Shown here one piece after another: positions 1,941 through 9,633 of a stretch of DNA of 34,543 nucleotides. Every line of letters begins with the position of its first letter. Position 1 is the first letter of the stretch. The notes beneath the pieces were generated by a model. It ran no database searches, was not told where the DNA came from, and saw only the letters and a program-made list of their open reading frames with translations. The position numbers and the translations under genes are program-made. Origin of the DNA: a virus; IMG/VR virus record IMGVR_UViG_3300044446_000023, positions 1 through 34,543 of that record; one strand, 5' to 3'.

Positions 1941-3053
1941 ATGGAATTCCACTCAGTCGCCAACATTTTCCCGATGATGAGCGCCGAAGAATTTGAAGCG
2001 CTCAAGGTGGACATTGCCGCCAATGGCCTGCGCGAACCGATATGGCTTCACCATGATCAAATCATCGACGGACGCAATAGGTATCGTGCTTGCGAGGCTG
2101 TCGGCGTCCAGCCCGAGTTTCGACGGTGGGGCGGGCAAGGCGATCTTGCTTCTTTCGTCGTCTCACTAAACCTGAAGCGGCGCCATTTAACAAGTAGCCA
2201 GTTGGCCGTTGTCGCGCTGGATATTGAGAAATATTTAGCGGAAGAGGCAAAAGCCAACATGCGCGCAGGGGGCGGCGACAAGCGAAACGGATCGGGGTGT
2301 CAAAAAGTTGACACCCCGATTGGCCGGGCTGCCGAGCAAGCTGCCGCAATCGTCGGCAGCAACCGCCAATATATCAGCGACGCGAAGAAGCTCGAGAAAG
2401 AAGCCCCTGAATTGCTATCGAAAGTCCGCGCCGGTGAAATCACTATCCCCGAAGCCAAGCGCGAGATTAGCGCCCGGCACCAAGGAGAGCGACGGGAAGA
2501 ACGAATCGCCAAAGTCATTGACCCGCTGAATACCATTGGGCGCTTCCCACTGATCTACGCCGACCCGCCGTGGCAATACGACTTCAGCGTTGACGACGCC
2601 GACCAGATCGAAAACCACTACCCGACAATGACCCTGGAAGAAATTTGCGACCTGCCCGTCGCGAAAGCCGGAACCGACGATTGCGTTCTGTTGCTGTGGG
2701 CGACCTCGCCTAAGCTGGAAGAAGCTTTCGCCGTGGTAAACGCATGGGGCTTCACTTATCGGACCTGCGCCATTTGGGACAAAGAGTGGATCGGGCCGGG
2801 CTACTACTTTCGCCAGCGCCATGAGTTGCTACTTGTGGCCACGCGAGGAAGCCTTCCGGTTCCCCTTCCCTCAAATAGGCCGGATTCAGTCTTCGCTGAA
2901 CGTCGCACAAGGCATAGCAAAAAGCCAGAACTCGCCTATCAACTAATCGAACGCATGTATCCCGAACTCCCGAAACTGGAACTGTTCGCGCGAGAGGCCC
3001 GCGACGGTTGGTCAGCATGGGGCAATGAGACAACAAGAAAGGCGGCTGTGTAA
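1941..3053 (+). CDS. ParB-domain / MT-A70 adenine methyltransferase fusion
   Basis: A 370-residue two-domain protein. Residues 1-75 form a ParB/Srx-like domain with the signature DGRNRYRA (43-50). Residues 75-180 are helical with an HTH-like stretch (NRQYISDAKKL). Residues 200-365 are an MT-A70-family N6-adenine methyltransferase with the catalytic DPPW motif at 208-211. The family methylates adenine N6 using S-adenosylmethionine. The ParB-like domain probably adds DNA binding or nucleotide-dependent loading. In phages such enzymes protect DNA from restriction or alter regulation. It starts at ATG 1941 after GAGAGG. The next gene overlaps its stop (TAATG). Confidence 0.9.
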   Translation: MEFHSVANIFPMMSAEEFEALKVDIAANGLREPIWLHHDQIIDGRNRYRACEAVGVQPEFRRWGGQGDLASFVVSLNLKRRHLTSSQLAVVALDIEKYLAEEAKANMRAGGGDKRNGSGCQKVDTPIGRAAEQAAAIVGSNRQYISDAKKLEKEAPELLSKVRAGEITIPEAKREISARHQGERREERIAKVIDPLNTIGRFPLIYADPPWQYDFSVDDADQIENHYPTMTLEEICDLPVAKAGTDDCVLLLWATSPKLEEAFAVVNAWGFTYRTCAIWDKEWIGPGYYFRQRHELLLVATRGSLPVPLPSNRPDSVFAERRTRHSKKPELAYQLIERMYPELPKLELFAREARDGWSAWGNETTRKAAV

Positions 3054-3676
3054 TGGACGCTCATTTCGGTAACGATTTGCAGTTCTCATGGGATCAAGCC
3101 GGCGCGCCATTCTGGGAAGAGGTTTACCGAACAGCCTTTCCGGATTTCGGATCGATGGTTGACGTGCGAAAGGATGGCTGGGCACAGCGCGGCGGCATTG
3201 ACCGAGTCATCACGACGCTGAATGGACGTACCTGGACAGTAGACGAGAAGGTGAGGCGCCAGAAATGGGACGACTTCCTTCTCGAACACATAGCAGACGA
3301 AGGCAAAAACACGCCGGGCTGGATCGAGAAGGATTTGGCTTGTGATTATATCGCCTACGCGTTTTTACCCAACAGGGAATGCTACCTCCTGCCCGTGCCC
3401 GCCTTACAAAGGGCATGGCGAAACCACAAAAGCGAATGGCTTACGGAATACAGGACCAAAGCCGCTCCGAATACCTACAAGGGCCGAAAATGGACAACGA
3501 TTAGTTGCCCCGTGCCAATCAAGGTTGTAATGCGCGAGATTGCCGTCGCCATGTTCTTTCGCTGGAAGTCTGACCCGCTCGTAGACGCGCCAATACGGGC
3601 ACAGGTAACCGCGCCAGCCCCGACCTATATCGTTCCACAAGAAGCCTGGTCGCCCGAATGGGACCCGCAGTTTTAA
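3053..3676 (+). CDS. PD-(D/E)XK-like nuclease candidate
   Basis: A 207-residue protein whose start overlaps the methyltransferase stop (TAATG), so the two are co-translated. The segment GGIDRVI (D50) followed by WTVDEKVRR (D64, E65, K66) has the spacing of a PD-(D/E)XK active site, and the helix after it (DDFLLEHI) fits that fold. Pairing with an adenine methyltransferase could make a restriction-modification-like or DNA-processing pair. No sequence-specific family is recognised. The nuclease call rests on the motif alone and is moderate. Confidence 0.6.
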   Translation: MDAHFGNDLQFSWDQAGAPFWEEVYRTAFPDFGSMVDVRKDGWAQRGGIDRVITTLNGRTWTVDEKVRRQKWDDFLLEHIADEGKNTPGWIEKDLACDYIAYAFLPNRECYLLPVPALQRAWRNHKSEWLTEYRTKAAPNTYKGRKWTTISCPVPIKVVMREIAVAMFFRWKSDPLVDAPIRAQVTAPAPTYIVPQEAWSPEWDPQF

Positions 3677-3682
3677 ATCAAA

Positions 3683-4576
3683 ATGGCATTTATTCCCGAT
3701 GAGGCAGTCGATCGAATGACGGAGTTAAGCGCCGGAGCGCTGAGATTATACATATTTCTTTGCCGCTGCCGGAACCAGAAAACCGGGAAATGCTTCCCGT
3801 CGGGCCGAACCTCAGCGGAGGCGATTGACGTGCATCCCAAGAACATTTTCAGACTCAGAAACGAACTCGCGGCGGCTGGATGGGCCAGATTTGACGCGGA
3901 CGAGGCTTTTGACCTGCTTGGGTTCGAGAGTAGCAAAAATGCTACCACTGACGTTGAACCCATTGAAGATGCGGACGAGAGTTGCAAAAACGCTACCATT
4001 CGGGCGATTGGTAGCAAAAACACTACCGTTGGTAGCAAAAATGCTACCGCAGAGTTGCAAAAACGCTACTCACTGGTAGCAAAAATGCTACCAAATGGTA
4101 GCAAAAACGCTACTCCCTATAAGGAAGAACCAGCAAAGGAACCAGCAAAGATAACCAGCAAAGAAGAACCATTACCGGATACTGACGTATCCGGCTGCAC
4201 GCTGGACATCAAGGGCTGCTATGCCCTCTTCGTGGAACTGTGGAAAACCGTAGGCGGATACGAAGCCCCCTACCAGAACAAGAAAGCCGACTTCGTTCAG
4301 CTAGCCGACTTGATTAAAAAATACAGCGCCGCTAATTGGCCAATCACGCAGGAAAGATTCGAGAAGGCCGCAAGGAATTACTTTGCCACACCTCAAGGCG
4401 CTCACACCCTAGCCGACCTGGCCAGCCGGTTCAGCGAGTTCTACAAAAATGCGCACAACGAGTTCAAGCGACCGACGGCTAACGGCGTGTTAGCCGCTTT
4501 CACACCAAACGCACAGAAAACCGTAGCCGCGCTTGAGTCATTCGTGGCGCGCAATATGGCGAAGGAGGATTTATGA
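3683..4576 (+). CDS. winged-helix replication initiator with intragenic iterons
   Basis: A 297-residue protein. Residues 1-75 form a winged-helix domain of the kind seen in phage and plasmid initiators (a GALRLYIFLCRC helix, then a FPSGRTSAEAIDVHPKNIFRLRNEL recognition region). Residues 82-146 are a low-complexity linker encoded by seven palindromic DNA repeats. Residues 165-297 are a helical C-terminal domain. The next gene, a helicase-loader-like protein, overlaps its stop (ATGA). The layout matches lambda O: DNA-binding N-terminus, iterons within the gene, helicase-loader contact at the C-terminus. Role: binds the iterons, opens the origin and recruits the loader. The start lacks a clear ribosome site and lies 6 bases after the previous stop. 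Confidence 0.8.
   Translation: MAFIPDEAVDRMTELSAGALRLYIFLCRCRNQKTGKCFPSGRTSAEAIDVHPKNIFRLRNELAAAGWARFDADEAFDLLGFESSKNATTDVEPIEDADESCKNATIRAIGSKNTTVGSKNATAELQKRYSLVAKMLPNGSKNATPYKEEPAKEPAKITSKEEPLPDTDVSGCTLDIKGCYALFVELWKTVGGYEAPYQNKKADFVQLADLIKKYSAANWPITQERFEKAARNYFATPQGAHTLADLASRFSEFYKNAHNEFKRPTANGVLAAFTPNAQKTVAALESFVARNMAKEDL
3929..4114 (+). repeat. seven palindromic iterons: candidate replication origin
   Basis: Seven 18-bp units, GGTAGC-AAAAAT/C-GCTACC with few variations, start at 3929, 3980, 4010, 4031, 4053, 4075 and 4097. The last four starts are 21, 22, 22 and 22 bp after their predecessors, two helical turns apart, so bound proteins would lie on one face. Units 5 and 6 fall in different reading frames from the rest, so the selected unit is DNA, not peptide. 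Arrays like this inside an initiator gene are origins in lambdoid phages. Confidence 0.85.
4128..4194 (+). other. candidate DNA-unwinding element and origin hairpin
   Basis: Next to the iterons lie three copies of AACCAGCAAAG (4128-4138, 4140-4150, 4153-4163) in a purine-rich, strand-asymmetric stretch. A perfect inverted repeat follows: CCGGATAC (4175-4182) and GTATCCGG (4187-4194), with a 4-base loop. Iterons, then a purine-rich melting region, then an inverted repeat is the order seen in lambda ori. Confidence 0.6.
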
Positions 4577-5394
4577 CCAATCGAGACTCGGCGGAATTTG
4601 CAAGGCTGTTCGTGGGGCTGGCGCAGGCGTTCGACAAGCAGGCCAGCGACCTACTGATTCAAATCTACTTCGACAGCCTGAAGGACTTCAGCCTTGAGGC
4701 CGTGACGACCGCCGTAAATCAGGCCGTCCACACCAAGAAGTTCTTCCCGAAAGTGGCCGAACTCCGCGAACTGATCGTGGGCAACCCCGAAGACCGGGCG
4801 GCAGGCGCGTGGACGGCATTCCTCGAAGCCGCTGCGAATGGTGGCACGGCGTCCGTGAAGTTCTCCGACCGTGCCACAGCCGCCGCAATGGACGCGGTGT
4901 TCGGCAGTTGGCTGGAAGCCTGCCGCCTTCTCTCTGCCGGTGGAACCGACGAAAAGACCGGGCGACAGGTGGGCGGCTGTACGGACGAAATGTTAGCCAG
5001 CTACCAAAAGTCATTCCTGAAGCAGTACGCCGCTGCTACGAACAGCAAGCGCGACGTTGAGCTATACCGGGCTGGCTTGTCCGAAGTCTCAATGCGCGAA
5101 CAGGGCGCCGCATGGGCAGCACGTATGCCGACGCTTCAACAGCCGGTCCTGTTCGTCGGTCCTGACAGGGTGATTGAGATTCCGCTGACGTTCGACGTAG
5201 CGCGCGGCCAGCTAGCCGACGAGTCCCGCAAGCTTCTCGAGGGCGGATTCGACGCGGCGCGCGCTTTGGTCGAAGGCCAAAGTCTCAGACTGCGACAAAC
5301 CCAGGAACGCAATGCACTGCCCCCGGCTGACGGTGAAGAAGTGGCAATGCCCGAAGGATTGCAGGCCAGGATTGACGCCTTGGCCAAACGATAA
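4573..5394 (+). CDS. replicative helicase loader-like protein
   Basis: A 273-residue protein starting inside the initiator stop (ATGA). Residues 5-70 (FARLFVGLAQAFDK to KFFPKVAELRELI) match the helical N-terminal pattern of phage helicase loaders and inhibitors of the G39P type, where FFP-x-x-AELR is typical. The middle is Ala-rich and helical. The C-terminal 100 residues are charged. Position directly after the origin-binding initiator strengthens the call, since lambda P occupies the same place. Expected role: bring the host replicative helicase to the melted origin. No ATPase motif is seen, so it is not a DnaC-type loader. Confidence 0.65.
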   Translation: MTNRDSAEFARLFVGLAQAFDKQASDLLIQIYFDSLKDFSLEAVTTAVNQAVHTKKFFPKVAELRELIVGNPEDRAAGAWTAFLEAAANGGTASVKFSDRATAAAMDAVFGSWLEACRLLSAGGTDEKTGRQVGGCTDEMLASYQKSFLKQYAAATNSKRDVELYRAGLSEVSMREQGAAWAARMPTLQQPVLFVGPDRVIEIPLTFDVARGQLADESRKLLEGGFDAARALVEGQSLRLRQTQERNALPPADGEEVAMPEGLQARIDALAKR

Positions 5395-5417
5395 CACCCA
5401 ACTAACACGGAGGCGAA

Positions 5418-5918
5418 ATGAGCAACCCACTGGATACACCCGGCGTTCCGTTCGAAATCGAACTGATGAACCCGAACCCAAGTAGCCGACGGACAAAGGA
5501 CGGCCCGGTATACCGCCTCAGTTTCGAAGTGAAGCCGGAGACGCATACCGCGTTTATGCAAGCCGCTGAATCAAACCTGCGCCTCGTCGGCTACCTGTCC
5601 GTGCTGCCCGACACGGACGAAGAACCGGCGCATAAGGCGATTGCGGAGAAGCAGGAGAAAGGGCCATGGGGCCAATTGTGGCGCCATCTCCGTATCGCTG
5701 GCGTCGTCAATTGCCCCGGCGTTCGTGAGGCTATCGCCTTGGTCCGCCACTCGGAGACCGAAGACGTATGGATTGCCATTCATCGCGTGTTCGACGTGGA
5801 GACGCTTGCGACTGTTGGCCCGAATGACATTTACGTACACTTCCCGGTCGAACGTAACCCCCAAGTGAAAGTGATGGTCGAACAGGCGCTACGAAAGGCG
5901 GAGGAGGCAGCGAAATGA
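5418..5918 (+). CDS. hypothetical early protein
   Basis: A 166-residue soluble protein with a good ribosome site (GGAGGCGAA). Its end overlaps the RusA start (ATGA). The first 60 residues look beta-rich (RLSFEVKPETHTAFMQA). The middle is amphipathic (GPWGQLWRHLRIAG) and the end is a helix. I do not recognise a family. Position between the helicase loader and the resolvase suggests a role in replication or recombination, but that is context only. Confidence 0.7.
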   Translation: MSNPLDTPGVPFEIELMNPNPSSRRTKDGPVYRLSFEVKPETHTAFMQAAESNLRLVGYLSVLPDTDEEPAHKAIAEKQEKGPWGQLWRHLRIAGVVNCPGVREAIALVRHSETEDVWIAIHRVFDVETLATVGPNDIYVHFPVERNPQVKVMVEQALRKAEEAAK

Positions 5919-8885: not shown

Positions 8886-8922
8886 CGCCGCCACGGAGAA
8901 GGGAAGGGGGCCGGTGGCGGCG
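8886..8922 (+). other. hairpin over the GTG start at 8914
   Basis: CGCCGCCAC (8886-8894) and GTGGCGGCG (8914-8922) form a perfect 9-bp stem. The candidate GTG start of the next gene is the first codon of the 3' strand, so the hairpin could limit initiation there or mark a later start. No T-run follows, so it is not a classical terminator. Confidence 0.45.
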
Positions 8923-9633
8923 AAGGTGGAACCCGAACAACCAATGGAGGTGAAAAGTGAGCAAAACAAAAGCATGGATAATACTAATCCTGCTGACAAT
9001 CGGCATTTGCGGCCTAGTAGTGAGCGCGTTCCTAACGCTGCCGAGCGGAGTAGTAGCGTTCTGCATAGTGGCGCTGCTCCTGGCCATATCGAGCGAGTAG
9101 GGGCCGAAGTAGCGGAGGCTGGAAAACCGCCTCTTGCCAGTACTGGCAAATTGGGGAATGTTCTCCCGTTTGCCAGTACTGGCAAATCGCCATTGCCAGC
9201 TAAAATGCCAGTACTGGCAAATCAACAGAATGCCAGTACTGGCAAACTGCCCCTAACTGATTGGAAACACAGCGACAGCAGGCCGCCACATCCCAAGGGC
9301 TACGAACTCTCAACGCCGCACGGAAAGGCTGAAATTGAGGTAGAATACAGAGGTAAAAAGCGGCGGCAATTAGTCCACGGCTACCAGATACTTTGGCGCA
9401 CGAAATGCGCTGATTGCCAGCGGAAAGTCAGGCCGGTTGCAGCGTTCTTTGGGCCACTGGCATTACACGAACTTTTGAAGGAGAAAAAAGATGTCCAAGA
9501 GGGAATCGTTAGCTTTAAACTACTCCGCTTCCGCAGAAGGCAAGCCGGAATCGAGCCTAGATGTCGTGGATGCGCCGGACAGGATATTCGAGGCGCTTCA
9601 CTGGATACGAGCGTTGCAGCTTCGGGGAACTGA
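8914..9633 (+). CDS. zinc-finger protein with intragenic palindrome array
   Basis: A 239-residue frame. The start is uncertain: GTG 8914 (AGGGGG upstream but inside a hairpin), ATG 8944 or later. Residues 1-120 are low-complexity and probably disordered. Residues 72-114 are encoded by four copies of a palindromic DNA repeat giving ASTGK or MPVLAN peptides. Residues 130-225 look folded, with CADC and CRGC pairs that could form a zinc ribbon. The design (disordered linker made from palindromic sites plus a DNA-binding-like domain) parallels the initiator at 3683. It overlaps a nested membrane-protein gene at its start and another gene at its end. Confidence 0.55.
   Translation: MAAKVEPEQPMEVKSEQNKSMDNTNPADNRHLRPSSERVPNAAERSSSVLHSGAAPGHIERVGAEVAEAGKPPLASTGKLGNVLPFASTGKSPLPAKMPVLANQQNASTGKLPLTDWKHSDSRPPHPKGYELSTPHGKAEIEVEYRGKKRRQLVHGYQILWRTKCADCQRKVRPVAAFFGPLALHELLKEKKDVQEGIVSFKLLRFRRRQAGIEPRCRGCAGQDIRGASLDTSVAASGN
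8957..9100 (+). CDS. 47-residue two-span membrane protein, GTG start
   Basis: The frame starts with GTG 8957 directly after GGAGGTGAAAA, an excellent ribosome site. It is clearly hydrophobic: a basic start (SKTKAW), a span IILILLTIGICGLVVSAFL, a short LPSG turn and a second span VVAFCIVALLLAI. It lies wholly inside the longer frame at 8914-9633 in another phase. The ribosome site and hydropathy argue it is genuinely translated. A pinholin or antiholin-like role is possible from size and topology, given a lipoprotein gene downstream. Confidence 0.65.
   Translation: MSKTKAWIILILLTIGICGLVVSAFLTLPSGVVAFCIVALLLAISSE
9134..9245 (+). repeat. four perfect or near-perfect 16-bp palindromes
   Basis: TTGCCAGTACTGGCAA occurs at 9134-9149 and 9170-9185. 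Copies with a first-base change (ATGCCAGTACTGGCAA) lie at 9205-9220 and 9230-9245, and a half site TTGCCAG lies at 9193-9199. Spacings are 36, 35 and 25 bp. The third copy is in a different codon phase. The motif is unrelated to the iterons at 3929. It may be a second origin, a partition site or an operator array. Confidence 0.8.

Follow-up and report, generated by a model that had tools for sequence, protein, structure and literature searches.

The DNA analysed here, which we call the window, is the entire IMG/VR virus record IMGVR_UViG_3300044446_000023, with a length of 34,543 bases. We have found in it an array of seven iterons, contained within a gene which codes for a putative replication initiator with an HTH_36 domain and is followed by a loader-like gene. 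Very probably the array is an intragenic iteron origin of the type described in phages lambda and SPP1, combined with a different DNA-binding domain: the design is familiar, the example is fresh and the function is putative. Dyad iterons with an A-tract thus also occur with a DNA-binding domain which lacks any detectable relation to lambda O. The features discussed below are collected in Table 1.

Table 1. Positions of the features found in the window and of the repeats found in three related contigs (L117–L119)
Feature	Positions	Strand	Sequence or remarks
Initiator gene, 297 aa	3683–4576	+	HTH_36 N-terminus, iteron-encoded linker, variable middle, C-terminal tail
HTH_36 DNA-binding domain, aa 13–67	3719–3883	+	PF13730, E=2.4e-9
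Iteron 1	3929–3946	+	AGTAGCAAAAATGCTACC, frame 0
Iteron 2	3980–3997	+	AGTTGCAAAAACGCTACC, frame 0
Iteron 3	4010–4027	+	GGTAGCAAAAACACTACC, frame 0
Iteron 4	4031–4048	+	GGTAGCAAAAATGCTACC, frame 0
Iteron 5	4053–4070	+	AGTTGCAAAAACGCTACT, frame 1
Iteron 6	4075–4092	+	GGTAGCAAAAATGCTACC, frame 2
Iteron 7	4097–4114	+	GGTAGCAAAAACGCTACT, frame 0
Maximum of predicted intrinsic curvature, whole record	3976–4070		AA-wedge model, ~91 degrees over ~95 bp
Candidate unwinding element	4115–4181		Low duplex stability, + strand purine-rich; putative role
C-terminal tail of initiator, last 31 aa	4481–4576	+	61–65% identity to L117–L119; no L060 match
Helicase-loader-like gene	4573–5394	+	Overlaps initiator 3' end by ATGA
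Central repeats, L117			CCAGATCTGG-type
Central repeats, L118			CCAGATGTGG-type
Central repeats, L119			CCGGAAGCG-type
Purine-rich unstable stretch, L117	4550–4610		TATATAATACAGATAAGTACATAATACAGAGAAGAGATACTACAGAG
Purine-rich unstable stretch, L118	2672–2731		TATATAATACAGATAAGTACATAATACAGAGAAGAGATACTACAGAG
Purine-rich unstable stretch, L119	4550–4610		TATATAATACAGATAAGTACATAATACAGAGAAGAGATACTACAGAG

The iteron array

The seven dyad units have 18 bp each, with the consensus GGTAGC-AAAAAY-GCTACC, and all seven have the same orientation. The first-pass annotation had reported seven units GGTAGC-N6-GCTACC inside the gene; we have located all of them, in positions 3929–4114. Two of the seven agree perfectly with this pattern, three have one mismatch, one has two and another one has three. 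The units had been considered palindromic: this is true for the arms, which are symmetric, but not for the 6-bp centre (AAAAAT, AAAAAC or AAAACA), which is asymmetric. Start-to-start distances are 51, 30, 21, 22, 22 and 22, so that the regular spacing of 21–22 bp extends to the last five units and not to the last four, as had been stated. We scanned the whole 34.5-kb record with the core GTAGC-A5N-GCTAC, allowing up to two mismatches: there are seven matches on the + strand and none outside the array. The reversed pattern, used as a control, has no match in the 34.5-kb record.

The array is conserved at the DNA level; it is neither due to chance nor a by-product of the protein sequence. Shuffles of the gene contain at most two similar dyads, as compared with the seven observed. 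In 5,000 synonymous recodings with phage codon usage we found a mean of 0.35 iteron units and a maximum of 4, while permuting the synonymous codons already present in the gene led to a mean of 0.94 and a maximum of 5. The homologous gene in L060 (the phage contig IMGVR_UViG_3300050511_000337) has six units, and the same recoding test produced no more than 4. It might be thought that the array is a protein repeat (GSKNAT) which is selected as a peptide, as five of the seven copies have a common frame: in frame 0 they encode (G/S)(S/C)KN(A/T)T. The other two copies are in frames 1 and 2, and encode ELQKRYS and LVAKMLP; three different peptides come from the iteron DNA, GSKNAT, LQKRYS and VAKMLP. 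Since synonymous recoding never reproduced the seven iterons, selection has acted on the DNA, and with both observations against it a peptide repeat is extremely unlikely.

The repeats could also act as RNA, in the form of tandem hairpins of the early mRNA. The folding of the RNA strand is much more favourable than that of its shuffles (z −8.6), a result which is expected of any dyad array. However, the loop AAAAAY is conserved as well as the arms, and changes in the arms have no systematic compensation: AGTTGC is found with GCTACC, and GGTAGC with ACTACC. An Rfam search gave no match, and the iterons accompany the DNA-binding domain between phages, as described below. We consider a role as RNA very unlikely.

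The initiator and the loader-like gene

The match to HTH_36 agrees with the earlier description of an HTH initiator gene which contains the iterons. They encode amino acids 83–144, directly behind this domain. It is the only one matched in the initiator: PF04492 (Phage_rep_O) is absent, and a comparison with lambda O by hhalign gave no detectable homology (probability 1.7%).

The presence of a loader-like gene after the initiator had also been noticed, and our results support it. Besides the overlap by ATGA, its product matches phrog_10105, a family of unknown function (E=6e-22), and has a weak match to the helicase loader phrog_2289 (E=0.002). The match to PF11417 (G39P) is below the cutoff, with E=0.026 and 15.5 bits for a gathering score of 22. 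Homologues in phage records are found directly 3' of genes for replication protein O, primosomal protein or replication initiation protein. From these weak family matches and the position of the gene, we describe the product as loader-like, a putative helicase loader. In the scan of genes near the array no DnaB-type helicase appeared; recruitment of the host helicase is therefore the likely route.

The C-terminal tail of the initiator is kept only where the loader-like gene is kept, a pattern of conservation which suggests that it is likely the region of contact with the loader. AlphaFold models of the initiator and of the loader-like product have low confidence (pLDDT 36 and 57). A fold search with the loader-like product and a sequence search of solved structures gave no match.

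Curvature and the candidate unwinding element

As it appears in Table 1, the strongest predicted curvature of the record coincides with part of the array. With the same method we obtained 72 degrees for lambda ori and 74 degrees for the L060 gene; all these figures are values of the AA-wedge model, not gel measurements. The DNA behind the array has low stability: the segment 4081–4181 is among the least stable 0.83% of the 100-bp windows in the record, and some other spots are less stable than it. Positions 4120–4179 have 67–77% purine on the + strand. A 12-bp repeat, GAACCAGCAAAG, is present in three copies, at positions 4127, 4139 and 4152. The A+T content behind the array is only 57%, modest beside lambda, and the putative unwinding element is therefore less marked than that of lambda. 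The GC skew of the record has no clear switch at ~4 kb and gives no origin signal.

Since the gene of this DNA-binding protein contains dyads which are likely its cognate sites, one may think of an autoregulatory operator: by binding to its own coding sequence the HTH protein would regulate early operon transcription, and the start of replication would be elsewhere. Such regulation could coexist with an origin role. As the sole function of the array it appears improbable: the seven sites are found 250–430 bp inside the gene, and a promoter-like site was looked for near the array and not found. Phased spacing, curvature and an unstable flank fit an origin, and the neighbouring gene is loader-like.

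Proposed mechanism

We have high confidence that these features as a whole are best explained by an origin of the lambda/SPP1 type, with binding by HTH_36, melting and recruitment of a loader. A theta replication origin would be embedded in the initiator gene, and replication would start there. The HTH_36 domain would bind each of the seven iterons in its own gene, probably as a dimer. With five helically phased iterons and A-tracts in phase, the bound proteins could wrap the pre-curved DNA, and the resulting strain would melt the adjacent purine-rich stretch of low stability, at ~4115–4181. The C-terminal tail of the initiator would then recruit the loader encoded by 4573–5394, which would deliver a DnaB-type helicase of the host.

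Comparison with other phage origins

Lambda ori, which is found in O next to P, had been proposed as a parallel, and the same layout is indeed present in positions 3683–5394. The first-pass annotation had also considered that the repeats were unlike the lambda iterons and that they might represent a new type of origin. These two claims do not stand. Lambdoid iterons are also inverted repeats; they are bound by O dimers and are intrinsically bent (PMC7466680, PMC5043065). In the sequence of lambda iteron 1, ATCCCTCAAAACGAGGGA, we can read the arms TCCCTC / GAGGGA and the centre AAAAC. The claimed novelty falls because the lambda iterons share the dyad symmetry and the A-tract centre. The same design is found not only in lambda, but also in the Flyfo siphovirus, AsaM-56 and Bcep176.

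The likeness with lambda extends to most features. Both have dyad iterons of ~18 bp with an A-tract centre and a single orientation, which in lambda have spacings of 20, 24 and 23 (~20–24 bp). In both cases the iterons are found in the linker directly behind the N-terminal DNA-binding domain, the DNA is curved, and a flank which is purine-rich and has low stability is found 3' of the iterons. The next gene, which in lambda is the helicase loader P, overlaps the end of the initiator. Lambda iterons adjoin a region which is A+T-rich and highly strand-asymmetric (PMC4488673); in the window the 3' flank is much less A+T-rich. There are other differences: the iteron sequence is not the same, there are seven copies instead of the four of lambda, the domain is HTH_36 instead of Phage_rep_O, and the loader has no family match to P.

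In SPP1, oriL is found within gene 38, beside the gene of a helicase loader, and has the loader gp39 as its partner (PMC6316719). As described there, it resembles the window in having the origin in the initiator gene, repeats with an AT-rich element and a loader which is the partner of the initiator; the weak G39P-like match of the 4573–5394 product points in the same direction. It differs in that its repeats are described as direct repeats and in that SPP1 has its own helicase, gp40.

Other phages provide further examples. Relatives of the loader-like gene of the window directly follow gp24 of Aeromonas phage AsaM-56, gp11 of Burkholderia phage Bcep176 and the O gene of the Flyfo siphovirus. 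The first two code for HTH_36 initiators, with linker arrays which differ in sequence from that of the window: dyads CGCAGATTCTGCA / CGCAGAAGTTGCG ~22 bp apart in AsaM-56, and GGAAACAGTCCCAAA with steps of 17 and 22 bp in Bcep176. Flyfo O is a Phage_rep_O initiator, which matches PF04492 as lambda O does; it has repeats ATCCCCAAAAATGGGGAT and is followed by DUF6475. Other neighbours of the loader-like gene, such as that of Vibrio phage FGH, have no clear dyad array. The intragenic dyad design is common beside the loader-like gene, but it is not universal.

Exchange of modules in related phages

A tblastn search with the initiator in 50,697 phage records gave no match, and when viral and genome contigs were scanned at the protein level, the contig of L060 was the only match. 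It had been suggested to look in phage sequences for the iteron inside initiator genes: the iteron pattern has 98 matches in viral contigs, nearly all of them single copies, as expected by chance, and among these contigs only L060 has an array in a homologous gene. In genome contigs, multi-copy matches are found only in Tidjanibacter. These MAG contigs (L147, in positions 3414–5603, and also L139, L144 and L134) have about 20 copies of the palindrome in a longer form, CACGGGTAGCAAAAATGCTACCCGTG, every 71–80 bp, with steps which are not multiples of 3. Given the longer palindrome and this spacing, we judge them unrelated to the array of the window.

In L060 the N-terminus of the initiator is very similar to that of the window (72% identity over 78 residues, E=2e-38), and the gene has six copies of the same iteron. 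The C-terminal half is unrelated. The gene which follows is not a loader: it codes for a Prim-Pol/DnaB_C (DnaB helicase) protein. The opposite situation is found in the contigs L117, L118 and L119. Their loader has 69–71% identity with that of the window over almost all of its length, and their initiators are also similar in the final 31 residues (Table 1). The N-terminal domain of the window has no match in these three contigs, which have a different HTH instead. Their central repeats differ from those of the window and among themselves. They are weaker iteron candidates, because they are largely frame-locked; in L117 the steps are 15 bp. Behind these differing arrays there is a near-identical stretch, purine-rich and very unstable, with repeats of ~12 bp: it looks like a conserved unwinding element.

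The simplest reading of these alignments is that the iterons are inherited along with the DNA-binding domain, and the C-terminal tail along with the loader, as the swaps in L060 and in L117–L119 would tie each pair together. Since L060 is the only other contig with the iteron family of the window, this covariation rests on few events. The same division of labour has been reported in lambda O: its amino-terminal half binds the iterons (PMC4488673) and its last five residues are essential (PMC6022878). A modular initiator is known from hybrids of lambda, and we would thus have a well-resolved natural case of it: the DNA-binding half is exchanged together with its iterons, and the tail which contacts the loader is exchanged apart from them. 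As the binding sites are found within the gene of their own binder, matched pairs of protein and site can be obtained from the sequence alone.

A more general proposal is tentative, and we consider it rather doubtful at present: the intragenic origins of HTH_36 phage initiators may constitute an independent lineage, and a large one, where a cassette of DNA-binding domain and iterons is swapped as a unit against a cassette of C-terminal tail and loader or helicase. If this were true, cognate pairs of domain and iteron could be read from sequences and used to learn the recognition code.

Other elements in the record

Just upstream of the replication genes, in positions 1941–3053, there is a gene for a fusion protein, in which an MT-A70 adenine methyltransferase (PF05063) is joined with a ParB-like region at the N-terminus. 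The iterons could be imagined as a parS-like partition centromere for this protein, as it has weak ParB-like matches and the dyads are short palindromes. Such a role is hardly credible: there are seven phased dyads within the HTH_36 gene, and in L060 they are kept together with HTH_36. As a weaker point against it, tblastn for a relative of MT-A70 was negative in the L060 stretch, which is half of the contig. We maintain the interpretation of the array as a putative origin.

A second palindromic array is present in positions 9133–9247. It has four copies of TGCCAGTACTGGCA with spacings of 36, 35 and 25, inside the gene 8914–9630, the product of which has CxxC pairs in its C-terminal half. The repeats are not all in the same reading frame, and encode ASTGK and MPVLA. 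The four copies are found with identical spacing in the relatives L118/L120 and L121. We have discarded this array as a target of the 3683–4576 initiator: L118 keeps the array and its spacing, yet the DNA-binding domain of its initiator is unrelated. It may be the target of the 8914–9630 product itself, for example a late regulator.
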